Of a DNA stretch of 38,326 bases, positions 1 to 35,802 are shown piece after piece. This DNA comes from Nitrospira sp. SB0662_bin_26 (GTDB lineage Bacteria > Nitrospirota > Nitrospiria > Nitrospirales > UBA8639): contig VXOF01000014.1 in NCBI GenBank assembly GCA_009840285.1, positions 1 to 38,326 on the forward strand, in the 5' to 3' direction. The translations under genes were made by a program, and so were the position numbers. The notes beneath the pieces were generated by a model. That model ran no database searches. It was not told the DNA's origin and saw nothing but the letters and a program-made list of their open reading frames with translations. The first letter of the stretch is position 1. The number at the start of each line of letters is the position of its first letter.

Positions 1-203
1 CGGTGATTGATAATACGCTCAAAGGCGTGGTGTTCCTCGTCAAAAGGAACGAGGAGAACGGCGTCCAGGTCCCGCAGGCCAAGTTTTACTTGCCGGGCGG
101 GACGGTGTCCGAGGTCACGGCCGAACATTGGCACGTCGGAAACAAGATGGAATTGAAAGACGCGGACATCGACCTGCAGGGAGGTGCGATCGAGATTCAA
201 TAA
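1..203 (+). CDS. 3' end of an unrecognised protein (5' truncated by window edge)
   Basis: An open frame runs from the window edge to a TAA at 201-203 and encodes about 66 residues of a protein C-terminus. It reads as beta-rich, with alternating hydrophobic residues and the segment FYLPGGTVSEV. I recognise no family or catalytic motif and see no membrane segment in this part. The start lies outside the window; the GTG at position 3 has no visible ribosome binding site, so a longer gene is more likely than a 66-residue one. The stop codon lies inside the 4-bp target duplication (TAAT) of a MITE inserted directly after it, so the element left the coding sequence unchanged. Confidence 0.5.
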   Translation, partial: VIDNTLKGVVFLVKRNEENGVQVPQAKFYLPGGTVSEVTAEHWHVGNKMELKDADIDLQGGAIEIQ

Positions 204-204
204 T

Positions 205-285
205 GGAACCTCTGATTTAATGCACCATCGGGCGTATGGCTGCGTTGTGTCCTGCATCTCGCTATCACAATAAATCAGAAGTTCC
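205..285 (-). mobile_element. MITE copy 1 (81 bp, internally deleted, inverted relative to copy 2)
   Basis: The ends are GGAACCTCTGATTTA and TAAATCAGAAGTTCC, which form a terminal inverted repeat of about 15 bp. Both sides are flanked by TAAT (201-204 and 286-289), a 4-bp target duplication. The reverse complement matches the 142-bp copy at 859-1000 at both ends but lacks about 60 internal bases. There is no coding capacity. The left TAAT supplies the stop codon of the upstream gene. Confidence 0.8.
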
Positions 286-375
286 TAATTTTTTTCGGGC
301 CGGGTCGACGTTGTTGTTTTGAATCGCGAGCCCTTCCCTCTTTCGTTGGCTTTCCACGTTCGTGGGAGAAGGTGA

Positions 376-762
376 GTGTCGACGTCATTCTATCACCTGC
401 TGGCCGACTTCCTTGTTCTTCTCCATTTCACGTTCGTTCTTTTTGTCCTGTTCGGCGGGCTCCTGATTCTGATATGGCGGTGGATGATATGGCTCCACCT
501 TCCCGCGGCGGGTTGGGGAGCCTTGATTGAATTCACCGGCTGGATCTGCCCGCTGACGCCCCTGGAGCACTGGCTCCGGGAAACGGGCGGAGGACCGGGG
601 TATCAATCCGGTTTCATCGAGTACTACATCCTGCCGCTCCTTTACCCCGCAGGGCTGACCGGACAGTTTCAAGTGATCCTCGGTCTTCTCGTGCTTCTCC
701 TGAACTGCGGCGTGTACCTGCTCGTATTTCGCCGACGTCGTCAATCCATGCAACGTGCATAA
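376..762 (+). CDS. DUF2784 family membrane protein
   Basis: This 128-residue integral membrane protein matches the DUF2784 family by its characteristic core, W-G-A-L-I-E-F-T-G-W-I-C-P-L-T-P-L-E (about residues 47-64), followed by a GGGPGYQSGFIEYY segment. I see hydrophobic helices at about 8-35, 40-58, 82-95 and 97-118, and a basic C-terminal tail (RRRRQ) that probably stays in the cytoplasm. The family has no assigned function. Its length is typical. The start is a GTG at 376 preceded by a GGAGAAGG Shine-Dalgarno stretch. The gene stands alone between MITE copies 1 and 2. The family call is strong; the function is unknown. Confidence 0.85.
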   Translation: MSTSFYHLLADFLVLLHFTFVLFVLFGGLLILIWRWMIWLHLPAAGWGALIEFTGWICPLTPLEHWLRETGGGPGYQSGFIEYYILPLLYPAGLTGQFQVILGLLVLLLNCGVYLLVFRRRRQSMQRA

Positions 763-858
763 CGCCCCTTCCTTCATAGCGCCGTTTCCGCATTTCCTGC
801 GAGTCTCTTGACCGCCTCTTTCGGCGACAGTATAGTCGGGAACTTGCTTTTATCTTAG

Positions 859-1000
859 GGAACCTCTGATTTATTGTGATAGCGGGATGCAGGGCAAGGC
901 GTCCCGGAGCGAAACCCGAGGCTTATCAGAGAGATAGGTGAGGGTTGAGCGAGGACACAACGCAGCCATACGCCCGATAGTGCAATAAATCAGAGGTTCC
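859..1000 (+). mobile_element. MITE copy 2 (142 bp, full length)
   Basis: This is the most complete copy. It begins GGAACCTCTGATTTATTG and ends with the exact reverse complement, CAATAAATCAGAGGTTCC, giving an 18-bp perfect terminal inverted repeat. It is flanked by TTAG on both sides (855-858 and 1001-1004). The interior has no convincing gene; apparent open frames through it only translate the repeat. TTAG fits the YTAR target preference known for IS5-group elements, so an IS5-type transposase is the likely mobiliser (inference). The right-hand duplication merges into the AGGA Shine-Dalgarno of the next gene. Confidence 0.85.
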
Positions 1001-1016
1001 TTAGGACATTGTGCCC

Positions 1017-1414: not shown

Positions 1415-3100
1415 TCAACGCCGCCGGCCATACAGGAAGGTGATATTGATGCGCCGGGATTCATATTCGTCCCGAAACACACAGGTGTCCGATTCATGAA
1501 AGAGATCGGAGTTGAAGACCAGGGCCCGGTTTGCCCGATAGGGCACCTTCACGGGTGACGCGCCGCTTTGGTTCAGAAATTCCCGGATTTTCGGCTGAAA
1601 CGCCGTGGAATTGTAGACCTTGAAATCCCAGTCCCGCGGGGCCTCCTTGTCCCACACGATCAAGCCTCCGCTCGCGGGGTCGAGGTTCGCGTCATCGGGG
1701 GTAATCCAGAAATTGACGTTCACCGCCGCCGCATCGGCATGGATTTTCAAGGGACGACGGGCACTGTCCTGCTTGAACGCCCAGGCCTGGAGTAACCGGT
1801 GTTGGTGAAAGATGCCCGGAAAGGCGGTGCGTAATTCTTCGGCCACTTGCAACAACAATGGCGAGGAAAACCCTTCGCCCAGAAACGCCCCGATGTAGCC
1901 GTCTTCATAATCCTTCTTCCAAATGGTCGACTCCCGGCAAAACTGCTGAAGGGCCGCAAGCGCCTCGGGCCGCAACAACGTATCGATATAAATGATTTCA
2001 GGCTGGCTCGCATTATAGCGTCGTTCAATCTCTTCCACGTTCAATTCCGGATTCAACGCTCCCCGGGGTAACGCAGGATTGTCGGCATAATGCAGGATTC
2101 GGTTCAGTGACGGAGCAAGGGCCCGGGCCTCTTCCTGACTGAGGTTGATTCGTTGGTTTGCTTCCCCCGAGGCCCGCTCTCGTAACGCGGTCAGGGTGGT
2201 CTGGTATCCGGTATCGGGCTGCCCCAACAATCCGCGTTCGGCCAAATAGTGGATTTGGTCCGCATCGTGCTTGATCCGGGAGGCATGAAGCGCATCGATC
2301 CGGACGGCCTTTCCATGGTTTTGCAGTAGATGGGCCGACACGCGGAGTTCGTGTAAGGCCCCATCCATATCCTGTTTCCACAATAGAGCCAATCCCAGAT
2401 GATGATGGGCTTTCGCGTATTGAGGCTTGATGGAGATGGCCTGCCGGAACCGGACGATCGCCTCGTCCGGACGATCGTCTTCAAACAGGATCACGCCGAG
2501 ATTGTAATGGGCCTCGGCATTTGCAGGATTGAGCGCAATGGCACGTTGATACGCGTCCCGTGCTTCGTCCTGGCGGCCTTGCTCCTTCAGGACCACGCCC
2601 AGGTTGTTGTACCCTTCAGGATGATCGGGCTTAATCGTCAAGACCTGCTTGTACGTCGCACAGGCTTCGTCGAGTTCGCCTTTTTCCCGCAGGACGTTAC
2701 CCAGGTTCCCCAACGCTTCGATGTAATCGCCCCTGAGCGAGAGGGCTTGCCGGTAGGCGCGTTCGGCCTCGGGCAATTGATTGAGTTTTTGATGGACGAG
2801 TCCCAGGTTGTAAAAATAGAGCGGCTTCGTCGATTCGCGTTGAACGGCTTTCATGATACAGTCGAGCGCCCGGTCATATTGGCCTTGCTGGTACGCCACC
2901 AACCCGAGTAGATGAAGGGCATCGGCATGGGCCGGGTCCTGCGTGAGAATTTGTTGATAACAGGTTTCGGCCTGGGACAATCGACCCGCCCGATGATGGT
3001 TGATCGCCTCCTCCAACACTTGTTTGGCAAAGGCAGTCTTTGCCGGCGCCGGAGACTTGGCCGTCAACTTGGCTTGTCGTCTTCGTTCGGTCCTGTTCAT
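1415..3100 (-). CDS. TPR-repeat protein fused to a C-terminal 2OG-Fe(II) oxygenase-like domain
   Basis: This 561-residue cytoplasmic protein starts with a basic segment (NRTERRRQAKL). About six or seven tetratricopeptide repeats follow (roughly residues 30-265), with the usual W/Y-LG-A-A-P signature, for example YNNLGVVLKEQGRQDEA. The C-terminal part (about 365-561) looks like a prolyl/aspartyl-hydroxylase type double-stranded beta helix. It has H454-A-D456, a distal H535 in L-F-H-E-S, and Arg549/550 in S-R-R-I-N, which match the HxD...H iron triad and the 2-oxoglutarate-binding arginine. Such fusions suggest hydroxylation of a partner protein gripped by the TPRs; the substrate is unknown. 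No signal peptide is visible. The gene stands alone, downstream of the rpoD terminator. Confidence 0.8.
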   Translation of the reverse strand: MNRTERRRQAKLTAKSPAPAKTAFAKQVLEEAINHHRAGRLSQAETCYQQILTQDPAHADALHLLGLVAYQQGQYDRALDCIMKAVQRESTKPLYFYNLGLVHQKLNQLPEAERAYRQALSLRGDYIEALGNLGNVLREKGELDEACATYKQVLTIKPDHPEGYNNLGVVLKEQGRQDEARDAYQRAIALNPANAEAHYNLGVILFEDDRPDEAIVRFRQAISIKPQYAKAHHHLGLALLWKQDMDGALHELRVSAHLLQNHGKAVRIDALHASRIKHDADQIHYLAERGLLGQPDTGYQTTLTALRERASGEANQRINLSQEEARALAPSLNRILHYADNPALPRGALNPELNVEEIERRYNASQPEIIYIDTLLRPEALAALQQFCRESTIWKKDYEDGYIGAFLGEGFSSPLLLQVAEELRTAFPGIFHQHRLLQAWAFKQDSARRPLKIHADAAAVNVNFWITPDDANLDPASGGLIVWDKEAPRDWDFKVYNSTAFQPKIREFLNQSGASPVKVPYRANRALVFNSDLFHESDTCVFRDEYESRRINITFLYGRRR

Positions 3101-3261
3101 CCTGGTACGCCAACCATTTCAGAAATTCCGAGACGTGTGAGCTTCCTGAACTTCGGCAGAGTACCCCTGCCTTTGTCAAAAAGTAAAGCATCCGGGAGCC
3201 ACCTTTTCGACTCCGGCGCACGATCCTGCATGACCTCACAAGCCGGCCAACCTGCTCCTTG

Positions 3262-3299
3262 ATAAAAAAAGGGTCTTGCACGAACGTGCAAGACCCTTT
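3262..3299 (-). terminator. Rho-independent terminator of the sigma factor gene
   Basis: A 15-bp perfect stem (3268-3282 pairing with 3285-3299) reads AAAGGGTCTTGCACG on the minus strand. The minus-strand product ends in a run of U (A-run 3264-3270 on the plus strand). It lies 25 bp after the rpoD stop codon, so it ends that transcript. Confidence 0.9.
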
Positions 3300-3323
3300 G
3301 AACCGTTTCCCGATATGAAACGA

Positions 3324-5126
3324 TCAAAACCCTTCGGCGAAACTGCGCAGTTTCTTGCTCTGACTCGGGTGGCGGAGTTTGCGCAAGGCCTTCGCTTCGA
3401 TCTGCCGGATCCGCTCCCGCGTCACCTCGAAGTCCTGCCCCACTTCCTCCAACGTGTGGTCCGTCGCCTCCCCGATCCCAAACCGTTTCCGCAACACCTT
3501 CTCTTCCCGCGCCGTCAGCGATTCCAGCGATTTCCCGATATGCCGCTGCAAATCGTACCGCACCGCCGCCTCCAACGGCGACACCGCTTTCTTGTCTTCG
3601 ATGAAGTCCCCCAAGTGGCTGTCTTCTTCTTCCCCGATCGGCGTCTCCAACGAGATCGGTTCCTTGGCAATCTTCAAAATCTTCCGCACTTTCTCCAACG
3701 GCATCTCCATCCGCACCCCAATCTCTTCCGGGGTCGGTTCCCGCCCCAATTGTTGCACCAAGTGCCGCGACGTCCGCACCAGTTTGTTGATGGTTTCGAT
3801 CATGTGCACCGGGATCCGGATGGTCCGCGCCTGGTCGGCAATGGCCCGCGTGATGGCTTGCCGGATCCACCACGTCGCATAGGTGCTGAATTTGTACCCC
3901 CGCTGGTATTCGAACTTGTCCACGGCTTTCATCAGCCCGATGTTCCCTTCCTGGATCAGGTCCAGAAACTGGAGCCCCCGGTTGGTGTATTTCTTGGCGA
4001 TACTCACCACCAGCCGCAGGTTGGCTTCGATGAGTTCGGCTTTGCCCCGCTTCATCTTTTCTTCGGCCCATTCCAACCCCACCAGGGCGCTTTTGAATTC
4101 GGCCGTCGGGAGCAAGGTGGCGGTCCGCTCCACCTGCTTGAGCGTGGTCCGGGCTTCCTGGCTCCGGGCGACCACTTGCCGTAAGGCGGCGTCACTGAGC
4201 CCCGCCTGCCGCCGGATGGGGGCGGTCGGGGTCCCGGCCCGGCTCAACCGCCGGAGCAGTTTGAGCCCCTCCGGGCCCGGCTGCCCCAGTCGCTGGCAGC
4301 AGTCCCGGAGGAGCCGTTCGGCTTGCCGCACGGTCCGGCCCGCGTCTTTGATCTGGCTCACTAAGGCCTCCCGCACGGCCGGTTGCAGGTGCAGCCCGTC
4401 CACCCGCGCCCCCAATTGTTCCTGCACGCCCCGCACTTTGGTGCTCCATCGGGCCTGCTGGGCCACCGGCGCGGTCCGCCGCCGGTCATAGAGCCGCAGC
4501 AGGGTCTTCCCCAACCGCCGGACCTGGTCCAATTCCGCCAGGGCCTGGTGCCGCAATTCTTCTTCTTCCTGGGCCTCGGCCACTTCGGGGTCCTCCAGGT
4601 CGTCGTCCCCGGGGTCGTGCACCAGCACGACCTCCCCCACGCTCACGTCCCGTTTCTTCAGCCGGCCCCGCCAGCTCTCCAGGGTTTGCAGGGTCATCGG
4701 CATCCCCGCGATGGCCCGCGTCATCTCTTCTTTGCCCTCTTCGATCTTCTTCGCCAGCTCGATCTCCCCTTCCCTTGAGAGCAGAGACACGCCGGCCATC
4801 TCGTTGAGATATAAACGAACGGGATCATCTATCCTGTTGACCGTACCGGGAGTCAGATCGATTTCTTTCTCGGTTTCCGGCAATGCTTCCCCTTGTTCAT
4901 CGGCCGGGGGCGCGGGCTCCGTCTTCATTTGGGATTCGAGGCTTTCATTTTGAAAGACGGCTGTCTGTTCAACGGCCTCCTCATCCAACGTGGCAAACAA
5001 CGTGGAAAACTCTTGCGAAGAACCTTTCTCCGCGATCAAGGGTTCTCTCATCCCTTCAAAGTTGGCTGGTTCTTTTTTCCTACCCGCAATCGGTTTCATA
5101 TTCCGGAGGCCACTGTTTTTGGGCAT
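3324..5126 (-). CDS. rpoD: RpoD-type RNA polymerase sigma-70 factor
   Basis: A 600-residue group 1-like sigma factor that directs RNA polymerase to -35/-10 promoters. Region 1.2 is at about 100-132 ([13 protein letters not shown]) and region 2 at 367-437, with the canonical -10 helix [10 protein letters not shown]. Region 3 is at about 440-520 and region 4 at 530-595, with the -35 helix [11 protein letters not shown] long non-conserved segment (about 133-358), acidic at first and then rich in Arg, Leu and Gln, separates 1.2 from 2. The first 100 residues are hydrophilic and acidic and show no recognisable region 1.1. The gene is not beside dnaG, a common partner. It could therefore be the main housekeeping sigma or a close paralogue. 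The ATG at 5126 has GAGGA 8-9 nt upstream, and a strong terminator follows the stop. Confidence 0.92.
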
Positions 5127-13392: not shown

Positions 13393-13518
13393 TTTTATTG
13401 TGATAGCGGGATGCAGGGCAAGGCGTCCCGCAACGAGACCCGAAGCTTATCGACATAAGATAGGTGAGGGTTGAGCGAGGATACAACGCCGCCATGCGCC
13501 CGATAGCGCAATACATCA
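13393..13518 (+). mobile_element. MITE copy 3 (about 126 bp, outer ends decayed)
   Basis: The interior matches copy 2 closely, from TTTATTGTGATAGCGGGATG to GCCCGATAGCGCAATA. The outermost 10 or so bases of both inverted repeats are lost or changed, and no target duplication can be read. The right edge abuts the stop codon of def (13519-13521). Confidence 0.75.
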
Positions 13519-14914: not shown

Positions 14915-14943
14915 TTTTCTGCTCCGGGAAACCATTGTTTTAG

Positions 14944-14982
14944 GGATCGCTGATTCAGATAGTGCGATAAATCAGAGATTCT
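14944..14982 (+). mobile_element. MITE copy 4 (39-bp, ends-only relic)
   Basis: Almost only the two inverted repeats remain (left GGATCGCTGATTCAG, right GATAAATCAGAGATTCT), with a short stretch of the internal right arm (GATAGTGC). TTAG flanks both sides (14940-14943 and 14983-14986), as in copy 2. It lies directly upstream of the HEAT-repeat gene. Confidence 0.6.
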
Positions 14983-15150
14983 TTAGTCTAGTGGGTTTTC
15001 CTCATACTGGTCAAGCGACAGACTCCCGGTGCACGGAGCCGGACCCGGCTTGATGATCTGGACACGTGGTTCTTTCATCTTGATTTCATGAATGGTAAAA
15101 TAAATGTTTAATCCGAACGGAATCATGACGACCGAGAAGGAGGGCTTTCT

Positions 15151-33650: not shown

Positions 33651-33672
33651 GGTAGTGTCTCAGTTTGAATTT
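33651..33672 (+). repeat. Left terminal inverted repeat (22 bp)
   Basis: It begins GGTAGTGTCTCAGTTT and matches the right end without mismatch. The transposase stop codon (TGA, minus strand, 33660-33662) lies within it. Confidence 0.93.
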
Positions 33673-34550
33673 CTCTTTTTGTACGGTCCCCGCTTTTTCG
33701 GTTCAGGTTTCCGAGCGTCAATCAGATTCAGCACGTCCTCCCATTCCCACACGTGATCCGTCAAACTCGCTTGCATGGCCGGTGTCACCCGCAGGCTTTT
33801 GTGAATCTTCACGAAATTGTAGAAGACGAAGTACAGGGCCAGCGCATGGCAATGGTTGTCGATCTTCTTAGAGAAGGCATTCGTCAAGCGGGTGAACCGT
33901 CGTAGACTCATTCTCATGGTGAGGTTGTGCCGCTCCACATGAGAAGTTGAGACGTGCTTTTTCTCTGGATTGCCTTGAACCCGTTGCTTTCGTGCGCCCT
34001 TACACACGGACGGGCTGTACTTCCGTTCCGGTCCCGGCTCTGGTGATTCCCCGTAGAGTTTCACCAGCTGAGCATAATCAATGTTATTCCCGAAGGCGTC
34101 TTCTACGGCTTCCAAATACACCTTGAGTCCGTCCGTCGTGAGTTGAACGCGGGTTGCCAGACGCGATTCCAAATCCCGCATGAACTCCGTGGCGTACCCC
34201 GCGTCCCGATCCCCCACCATCCACGACAAGATCAGTTTCGATTCACTCTCAAGGGCTGTCCAAGTCCACACATCACCGGCTTGCTCAGGGGCTGCCTGGG
34301 CTGCCCTCACGTTCTTTTGCTTGGCGTAGCAGAAAGACCAGATCTCATCGCATTGCACTTTGGAAGCGTGGACGTTGCGGACATGCTCATCGTGAAAGGC
34401 TTCACAGGCTTGGCCCGCTTCCACCAAGAGTTTCGTCACCGTGTTGATGCTCACGCCCACAATACGCGAAATTGTCCGCATGCTGGAGCCCTCAACCAAC
34501 ATGGAGAGAATCTGAATGCGCTTCGTATTTGGCAATGTGTTCATGTTCAT
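33660..34550 (-). CDS. IS1-family transposase (single ORF)
   Basis: A 296-residue DDE transposase made as one continuous frame, unlike classic IS1, which needs a frameshift between InsA and InsB. The N-terminus has an HTH (about 13-45; I-L-S-M-L-V-E-G...I-S-R-I-V-G-V-S). The catalytic triad is D68 in Q-C-D-E-I-W-S, D140 in T-T-D-G-L and E206 in S-H-V-E-R-H-N-L, followed by the family's F-S-K-K helix and N-F-V-K-I-H-K-S-L. The basic tail ([12 protein letters not shown]) probably binds DNA. The stop lies in the inverted repeat. A consensus promoter sits so close to the start that the mRNA is probably leaderless, beginning at Met1 or Met3 (34544). Confidence 0.93.
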
Positions 34551-34665: not shown

Positions 34666-35802
34666 ATGAAAAATGACCCCGAACCAGATATTGGAAAGCA
34701 TCCAGGCGCCTATCTCCGTGATCTGCTTAACGCGAGAGGATTAACGCAACGCGACCTTACCTCGATTCTTGGGATAGCGCATACTGGCATAAATATGATC
34801 ATTGCCGGGAAAGTCGGAATTAGTGCAAAGATGTCAAAAGCCTTGGGACTGGCATTGGGGTATCCCCCATTACATTTTGCTGCTCTCCAAACCGCCTATG
34901 ACGTAGCGCGAGCAGCTAATCCAGATGAAATGGTTTCAATTCGCGCCAAGATGCATACGACATATCCGATACGATCCATGATGAATCGTGGCTGGCTTCA
35001 TGATTCAGATGCCGAAGATATCCAGCGACAGCTTGCTCTGTTCTTTGAGGTCAACGATATGGGAGAGATCCCATATCTCGCTCACGCTCCGAAGAAAACG
35101 CGCTATGAAGAAAAAGACATCCCGCCAGCGCAGTTAGCGTGGCTATTCAGAGTCAAACAAATTTCAAGATCAATGGCTGTACCGCGCTACTCCGCAAGGG
35201 CTTTAAAGAAAGCTATTGAGCAGATGAAGCGCATGCGTATTGCTCCTGAAGAAGCACGACATGTACCAAGGCTTCTATCAGAGTGTGGGGTGAGGTACGT
35301 TATCGTTGAACCATTGCCAAAATCGAATATCGATGGTGTATGCCTATGGTTGAACAAAGACACTCCGGTAATCGGGATGTCTGCACGGTACGACCGTATT
35401 GATAACTTTTGGTTTGTTCTCAGGCATGAATGCGAACACGTGCTTCGAGGGCATGGCCTAAATTCTGATCAGTGGATGCTCGACGCCGACATTGAGGGGC
35501 AGCGAGCCGATCCAAATAGCGATCTCCAGGAAGAAGAACAACAAGCGAATGACGCTGCTGCTGATTTCTGTGTTCCGTCAGATGCCTTGAAATCATTCAT
35601 CAGGAGAAAGCATCCCATATATGCCGAACAAGATGTCTTGGGGTTTGCGCAAATCCACGGCATCGCTCCAGGATTGATCGTGGGACAGCTTCAACACTAT
35701 TTGAAGCGATACCAATATTTACGTCACCATCTGGTCAAAATACGACACATAGTGCTTCCGAATTCCATTGTGGATGGATGGGGGTATGTTGCCCCTTCTT
35801 AG
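34666..35802 (+). CDS. Fused XRE-HTH regulator and ImmA/IrrE (M78) metalloprotease
   Basis: A 378-residue cytoplasmic protein. Residues 12-70 form a Cro/C1 HTH (L-T-Q-R-D-L-T-S-I-L-G-I-A-H-T-G-I-N). The C-terminal half carries H254-E-C-E-H258, the HEXXH zinc site of ImmA/IrrE peptidases, and an E-E-E-Q-Q-A-N-D-A-A-A-D-F helix (from 289) that supplies the third ligand in this family. In ICEBs1, separate ImmR repressor and ImmA protease form an induction switch; here both are in one chain. HigA-like antitoxins with M78 domains are an alternative reading. A 6-codon frame (ATG 34656 to TGA 34676) overlaps the start and may couple translation. The downstream 158-residue gene follows after 14 bp. 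Confidence 0.88.
   Translation: MKNDPEPDIGKHPGAYLRDLLNARGLTQRDLTSILGIAHTGINMIIAGKVGISAKMSKALGLALGYPPLHFAALQTAYDVARAANPDEMVSIRAKMHTTYPIRSMMNRGWLHDSDAEDIQRQLALFFEVNDMGEIPYLAHAPKKTRYEEKDIPPAQLAWLFRVKQISRSMAVPRYSARALKKAIEQMKRMRIAPEEARHVPRLLSECGVRYVIVEPLPKSNIDGVCLWLNKDTPVIGMSARYDRIDNFWFVLRHECEHVLRGHGLNSDQWMLDADIEGQRADPNSDLQEEEQQANDAAADFCVPSDALKSFIRRKHPIYAEQDVLGFAQIHGIAPGLIVGQLQHYLKRYQYLRHHLVKIRHIVLPNSIVDGWGYVAPS

Follow-up and report, generated by a model that had tools for sequence, protein, structure and literature searches.

A high-copy MITE family in Nitrospira with a likely IS5-group partner in related genomes

The repeat described here is a MITE, a short element of 142 bp that has no transposase gene and is bounded by 18-bp terminal inverted repeats (GGAACCTCTGATTTATTG). 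It is a non-coding mobile element that duplicates 4 bp of its target, and its mobility follows from the multiple copies, the terminal repeats, the 4-bp duplications, the empty sites and the occurrence of recent and old copies together. The analysis started from a window of 38,326 nucleotides of Nitrospira sp. SB0662_bin_26, which is contig C6 of a 2.2-Mb genome (113 contigs, 98.77% complete). The explanation that we favour as a whole, with a probability of about 85%, is that the MITE would be moved in trans by an IS5-group transposase of the genus, that it would insert at AT-rich tetramers and that its copies would later decay; the mechanism in this explanation is read from sequence comparison. 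The name MITE had already been proposed by a sequence-only reading of the window, and it is supported by the number of copies, by their 4-bp duplications and by the empty sites of relatives.

A search of the window with the end pattern (at most 3 mismatches) gave five matches, and shuffled windows gave none. The copies are listed in Table 1.

Table 1. MITE copies in the window and their target-site duplications
Feature	Coordinates	Strand	Details and basis
Complete MITE copy, reference orientation	859..1000	+	142 bp, two exact 18-bp ends
Left target-site duplication TTAG of 859-1000	855..858		sequence
Right target-site duplication TTAG of 859-1000	1001..1004		sequence
Inverted, internally deleted MITE copy of 81 bp	205..285	-	1 mismatch per end
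Left target-site duplication TAAT of 205-285	201..204		overlaps stop codon TAA of the upstream gene; sequence, orthologous empty sites
Right target-site duplication TAAT of 205-285	286..289		sequence
Old MITE copy, about MITE positions 12-133, outer ends gone, no duplication	13394..13518	+	alignment with L265, L266 and L268
MITE remnant of 39 bp, both ends degenerate, interior lost	14944..14982	+	orthologous remnants L263 and L265

The sequence-only reading had described four copies sharing their ends. This holds for two of the four, 859-1000 and 205-285, in which both ends have at most one mismatch, but not for the copy that it placed at 13393-13518, where both ends are missing, nor for 14944-14982, where they are degenerate (3 mismatches in one end, more than that threshold in the other). 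The exact duplications that it gave, TAAT for 205-285 and TTAG for both 859-1000 and 14944-14982, agree with the sequence; those bracketing the remnant lie at 14940-14943 and 14983-14986. It was also right that one copy, the 81-bp copy with TAAT on either side, is inverted. Its proposal of nested internal deletions stands for 205-285, fits 14944-14982 and fails for 13393-13518, in which the ends were lost by decay. The truncated copy is the product of old decay and not a movable small version, because it is present at the identical place in three relatives (L265, L266 and L268), and the MITE family therefore predates the split of these species. The copy at 14944-14982 is an old remnant.

Comparison with relatives also gave the empty sites that the sequence-only reading had suggested looking for, and three of the copies in the window have such sites, with a single TTAG or TAAT. 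For 859-1000, the otherwise aligned locus L248 of genome G012 has a single TTAG, and six more relatives (L249-L254) align across the site with the element absent. For 205-285, G003 (L252) has an empty site with a single TAAT, and G004 (L249) holds the full 142-bp form at that site; therefore 61 bp were lost after insertion by internal deletion. The remnant at 14944-14982 is absent from L261, L262, L264 and L267, which keep one TTAG, and is common to L263 and L265. A MITE copy in the opposite orientation, with ATAG, was observed at the target of 859-1000 in another genome (L245, contig C35 of G011), either as an independent insertion at one site or as an inversion via the ends. Copies that differ by a single base (three hot sites excluded) exist within single genomes, and the sample includes 23 pairs of copies from different genomes, in the same orientation, that look orthologous.

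In the genome of the window (G000) the end pattern was found 60 times on the forward and 68 times on the reverse strand (at most 3 mismatches), and the reversed-pattern control gave 0. If each copy has two ends, these 128 ends correspond to roughly 64 copies. The genome-wide count proposed in the sequence-only reading came out far above chance. The 142-bp query matched 11 of the 14 genomes of the genus and none of 83 genomes outside it. Ends were most numerous in G008 (341) and G011 (181), followed by G000, G004 (100), G013 (95), G012 (31), G001 (27), G005 (14), G003 (13), G010 (6), G006 (4), G007 (1), G009 (1) and G002 (0), with 0-2 matches per genome in the reversed-pattern control. Moreover, the exact 25-base left end occurs in 72 stretches of a collection with named species, all of them from Nitrospira sp. 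or Nitrospirales bacterium, while the MITE had no match in plasmids, in phages or, as an exact 18-mer, in viral contigs. The genus probably corresponds to GTDB bin75 (Candidatus Nitrosymbion), which is described as a nitrite oxidiser associated with sponges (PMC11812461). Many contigs of G000 begin about 35-55 bases ahead of a MITE copy or within one, as expected if the repeat interrupts the assembly, and the MITE accounts for many contig breaks in metagenome assemblies of the genus.

For the study of insertion sites, 159 distinct full-length copies with flanks were collected (43 from G000, 43 from G004, 24 from G011, 22 from G013, 9 from G008 and 18 from others). This sample is not random, as it combines best-scoring and exact-pattern hits with left-end lists that are near-complete for G004 and G013. 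The copies are uniform in length (126 of exactly 142 bp and 27 of 143 bp), and an exact 4-bp duplication flanks 81 of them, compared with a mean of 6.04 and a maximum of 16 in 200 shuffles of the right flanks. Duplications of 3 and 5 bp were found in just 2 and 3 copies respectively, without excess at 3 bp. Among the 81 duplications T is the first base in 63 and A the last in 55, and the commonest is TTTA (14), followed by TAAA and TTGA (7 each). The counts shifted with sampling, the exact duplications from 67/119 to 81/159 and the intergenic copies, considered below, from 52/60 to 61/74.

The YTAR target is a trait of E. coli IS5 and is not known to be demanded of every IS5-family member. It was on the fit of TTAG to the IS5 target that the sequence-only reading had based its choice of an IS5-type mover, and this argument is weak because most of the family's duplications depart from YTAR (it fits 8 of the 67 counted), the motif that IS5 itself duplicates (PMC10359306).

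A candidate partner was found in two relatives. In G008 an intact insertion sequence (IS) of 1165 bp (L160:1014-2178) has perfect inverted ends, GGAACCTCTGATTAAGTC, and TTTA, the commonest duplication of the MITE, on either side; it combines an IS5-type transposase, inverted ends and a short duplication, as is looked for in the IS5 family, the duplication being seen at one insertion. A second intact IS, in G013 (L159), begins one base from the contig end, and its protein is 91% identical to the transposase of G008. Both transposases (313 aa) match the IS5-family model NF033581 with 312 and 318 bits, for a cut-off of 140, and also PF01609 and PF05598; no solved structure was found for the IS transposase at E 0.001. 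The ends of the MITE and of the genus IS (L160) are identical in 15 of 18 bases and differ at positions 14, 16 and 18. Thus the sequence-only reading's suggestion of looking for a full IS5-family element with matching ends led to one in G008 and G013, but its ends match in 15 of 18 bases and not exactly. Movement by an IS5-type transposase, as the same reading proposed, is supported by these end bases and by the end matches in family f3 described below, most of which would belong to the same IS clade.

The likeness between the MITE and the IS is confined to the ends. The outer 13 bp alone align, the other matches being of 8-9 bp with E about 1, and the MITE is therefore not a simple shortened IS; its derivation from the genus IS by internal deletion was rejected, as there is no alignment between the interiors. 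None of the genomes searched yielded an IS with the exact ends of the MITE, GGAACCTCTGATTTATTG, and no near match to the genus IS was found in plasmids. A solo end at position 3356 of L111, considered as a possible IS, proved to be just a short remnant before tgt. As an independent observation, L160:1014-2178 abuts the 3' part of a gene resembling restriction-modification genes (ORF 2164-3348, opposite strand, by eye).

Relatives of the transposase are present in 77 of 395 genomes of the phylum and, within the genus, in G008 and G013 only. Thirty loci of the phylum with such relatives were fetched, and 28 of them have recognisable paired ends, mostly GGAASGTCTGATTWATTC; most carry 4-bp duplications, chiefly CTAG, TTAG or CTAA. 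When 235 genomes of the order were searched with the 18-mer (at most 1 mismatch), the matches outside the genus were in family f3 only, and 11 of the 19 f3 loci fetched with a MITE-like end carry a homologue of the genus IS transposase or a piece of it. Four loci of this family (L380, L381, L382 and L383) have the end GGAACCTCTGATTAATTC with no transposase nearby and are perhaps another MITE or solo ends.

The sequence-only reading had placed the transposase elsewhere in the same genome, and this did not hold up. No IS5-type gene was found in the 98.77%-complete genome, searches with PF01609, the L160 transposase and PF13586 all being without match, and the IS is found in relatives instead. 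The gene may be missing from the draft bin, lie on an unbinned contig or have been lost. Of the 14 genus genomes, 5 match PF01609, but the loci inspected in G005, G006 and G009 (L172, L167 and L178, which cover one of the three hits of G009) are without MITE-like ends and were rejected as partners. An IS5-type gene is also absent from G004 and G011 despite their many similar MITE copies. The only complete genome with MITEs, G010, has neither a PF01609 match nor a relative of the IS, and its MITE copies are diverged (84-93% in most hits; median nearest-neighbour distance of 12 bases among 4 copies), which counts in favour of the IS as the mover. Ends are most numerous in G008, which has the IS, but G011, G000 and G004 have many of them and no IS; copy number does not simply track the presence of the IS. 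The window itself holds an IS1-like transposase gene (33660-34550, minus strand), which was rejected as the mover as it belongs to another family and has no MITE-like ends (at most 3 mismatches) beside it. This gene scores 74 bits with NF033558, below the cut-off of 100, and just above the cut-off with PF03400, and it adjoins a gene resembling those for HigA-type regulators (34666-35802, by eye).

The mechanism that we propose can be outlined as follows. An IS5-group transposase of the NF033581 type, produced by a full IS of the genus, would bind the outer GGAACCTCTGATT of the MITE, cut the element out or copy it and insert it at AT-rich tetramers, most commonly TTTA, with duplication of 4 bp. 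The inserted copies would persist mostly in intergenic DNA, often at a stop codon kept by the duplication or by the first G of the element, and would then decay by internal deletion or by loss of their ends. In genomes without the IS the MITE may be stranded.

Insertions are unevenly distributed with respect to genes. Among the 74 copies with an exact duplication and enough flank, 61 lie outside ORFs of at least 100 aa, whereas these tetramers, taken at random in that DNA, do so in 27.5% of cases. Among the 61 intergenic copies, 17 have a duplication that overlaps a stop codon, about 7-fold more than the 3.9% found for the identical tetramers of that intergenic DNA, and the excess is maintained with ORF thresholds of 150 aa (12/62 against 2.2%) and 200 aa (12/67 against 1.2%). 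Mostly the duplication reaches to the end of the stop codon or one base past it, which preserves the stop; if it falls one base short, the offsets indicate that TAG can be completed by the G with which the element begins. Little-diverged copies are as strongly placed at stop codons (14 of 59 intergenic copies) as more diverged ones (11/34 and 5/15), and slow purging is therefore not seen. The bias could come from target choice or from selection after insertion.

The position at stop codons could also suggest that the repeat is a domesticated 3'-end element, no longer mobile, which acts as a terminator or processing signal in the manner of REP/BIME and is kept for its hairpin. This would suit both the stop-codon overlap and the folding energy of the MITE (-68.1 kcal/mol, against -37.8 for shuffles). 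However, good folding is a property of any MITE with inverted ends of 18 bp, and here both strands show it; the two orientations are equally frequent at stop codons (9 and 9). Double changes at paired positions are few (17 and 23 cells) and of doubtful weight as compensatory changes, and selection based on structure is therefore not claimed; the window gave no match in Rfam. The exact duplications, the empty sites and the mostly unshared positions show mobility, which makes a domesticated element very improbable. That the copies are an artefact of assembly or a contamination is scarcely credible. The frequent starts of G000 contigs inside a copy, and a second version of the junction 1-204/1008-1123 on contig C80, could be cited for it, but copies are present in 11 genomes that were assembled independently, including one in a single contig, with unique flanks and duplications, and the complete genome G010 and G004 refute it.

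The MITE could also be moved by a transposase from a different family, whose gene the draft genomes failed to recover, the likeness to IS5 ends being then a partial coincidence or a sign of distant kinship. The missing autonomous element with exact ends, the absence of an IS5 gene from the copy-rich G000, G004 and G011, and the departure of the MITE duplications from YTAR (8/67), which the f3 ISs mostly fit, are all compatible with such a mover. We nevertheless consider it unlikely, as the MITE shares 15 of 18 end bases and the 4-bp duplication with the genus IS, the matches to its ends across the order lie largely beside the same clade of transposases, and PF13586 is absent from all 14 genomes of the genus. 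The mover is thus most likely an IS5-group transposase, judging from these end sequences, with an intact IS in just two relatives among those searched.

Two positions of the MITE are unusually variable. Three copies of unusual length (131, 146 and 148 bp) were excluded from the alignment, and the remaining 156 have a mean identity of 95.8% to the consensus. Nevertheless, position 127 (base 16 of the right end; window 985) has A in 63 copies, T in 39, G in 30 and C in 23, and position 71 (in the middle of the element; window 929) has G in 70, T in 53, A in 23 and C in 8. On a tree built without these sites they require 53 and 49 parsimony steps respectively, compared with 20 for the next site and a median of 3. 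The variability is seen within G000, G004, G013 and G011 singly, and in G008 (9 copies) for position 127 only. Within the 23 orthologous pairs position 127 differs in 15, position 71 in 13 and the neighbouring position 72 (window 930) in 14. No clear link to the flanking bases was found, with one weak position (-13) for site 71 in 80 tests. Gene conversion between copies could explain part of this variability, mutation linked to the hairpin may contribute, and assembly bias is a possible cause in assemblies of the k-55 type; the pattern is also present in G004 and G013, for which the contig names point to k=141. It seems doubtful that transposition itself steers the element to stop codons, as a safe-harbour MITE, and that in addition its hairpin drives a special high mutation at positions 71 and 127.

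Elements of this kind have been described in other bacteria. As far as the published accounts cited here go, the closest case is MITEPsy1 of Pseudomonas syringae, an element of 100 nt proven to transpose, with 18-nt inverted ends, a 4-nt duplication and, like the MITE described here, ends similar to those of the IS5 family; its proposed parent is ISPsy2 (IS5 family), its targets are CTAG or YTAA and 6 copies are reported in strain 1448A (PMC3189936). By contrast, the present MITE has about 64 copies in its genome, as estimated from the ends, mostly non-YTAR targets and no parent in the same genome. IS5-family-like ends are also described for the ATR element of Neisseria meningitidis, with ISNme1 (IS5 family) as proposed parent, and for BrickBuilt/MITEPgRS of Porphyromonas gingivalis, in which BrickBuilt contains a minisatellite and has irregular duplications (PMC4596501). 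According to that account BrickBuilt is also without an internal transposase remnant, but the ends of ATR and BrickBuilt are of the GAGACCTTTGCA type, unlike those of the MITE. The IS5-group ISs of Nitrospirota (L160, L159 and L189-L216) resemble it in their ends, GGAASSTCTGATTWA, and 4-bp duplication, and differ in their length of 1.15-1.18 kb, in encoding a transposase and, in f3, in duplicating mostly CTAG, TTAG or CTAA. No description of the repeat was found in the literature searched, and among the matches listed for an 11-base piece of the end none concerns Nitrospirales. The MITE forms a new family within a known kind of element, ordinary as such and with a looser target.

The family combines a high copy number in a nitrifying, probably sponge-associated lineage with a likely IS partner left in two relatives, and it offers many datable insertions, in living and decaying states, in sister species. 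It can thus serve as a natural system for studying the survival of a MITE beyond that of its partner IS and the reasons for its settling at stop codons.

A last observation concerns the gene junction of window positions 1-204 and 1008-1123, of which contig C80 of G000 (1-319; L259 and L293) carries a second version without the segment 205-1007. It can be a paralogue, a transfer or the result of a mixed bin, and it is 97% identical to G008 over 663 bases.
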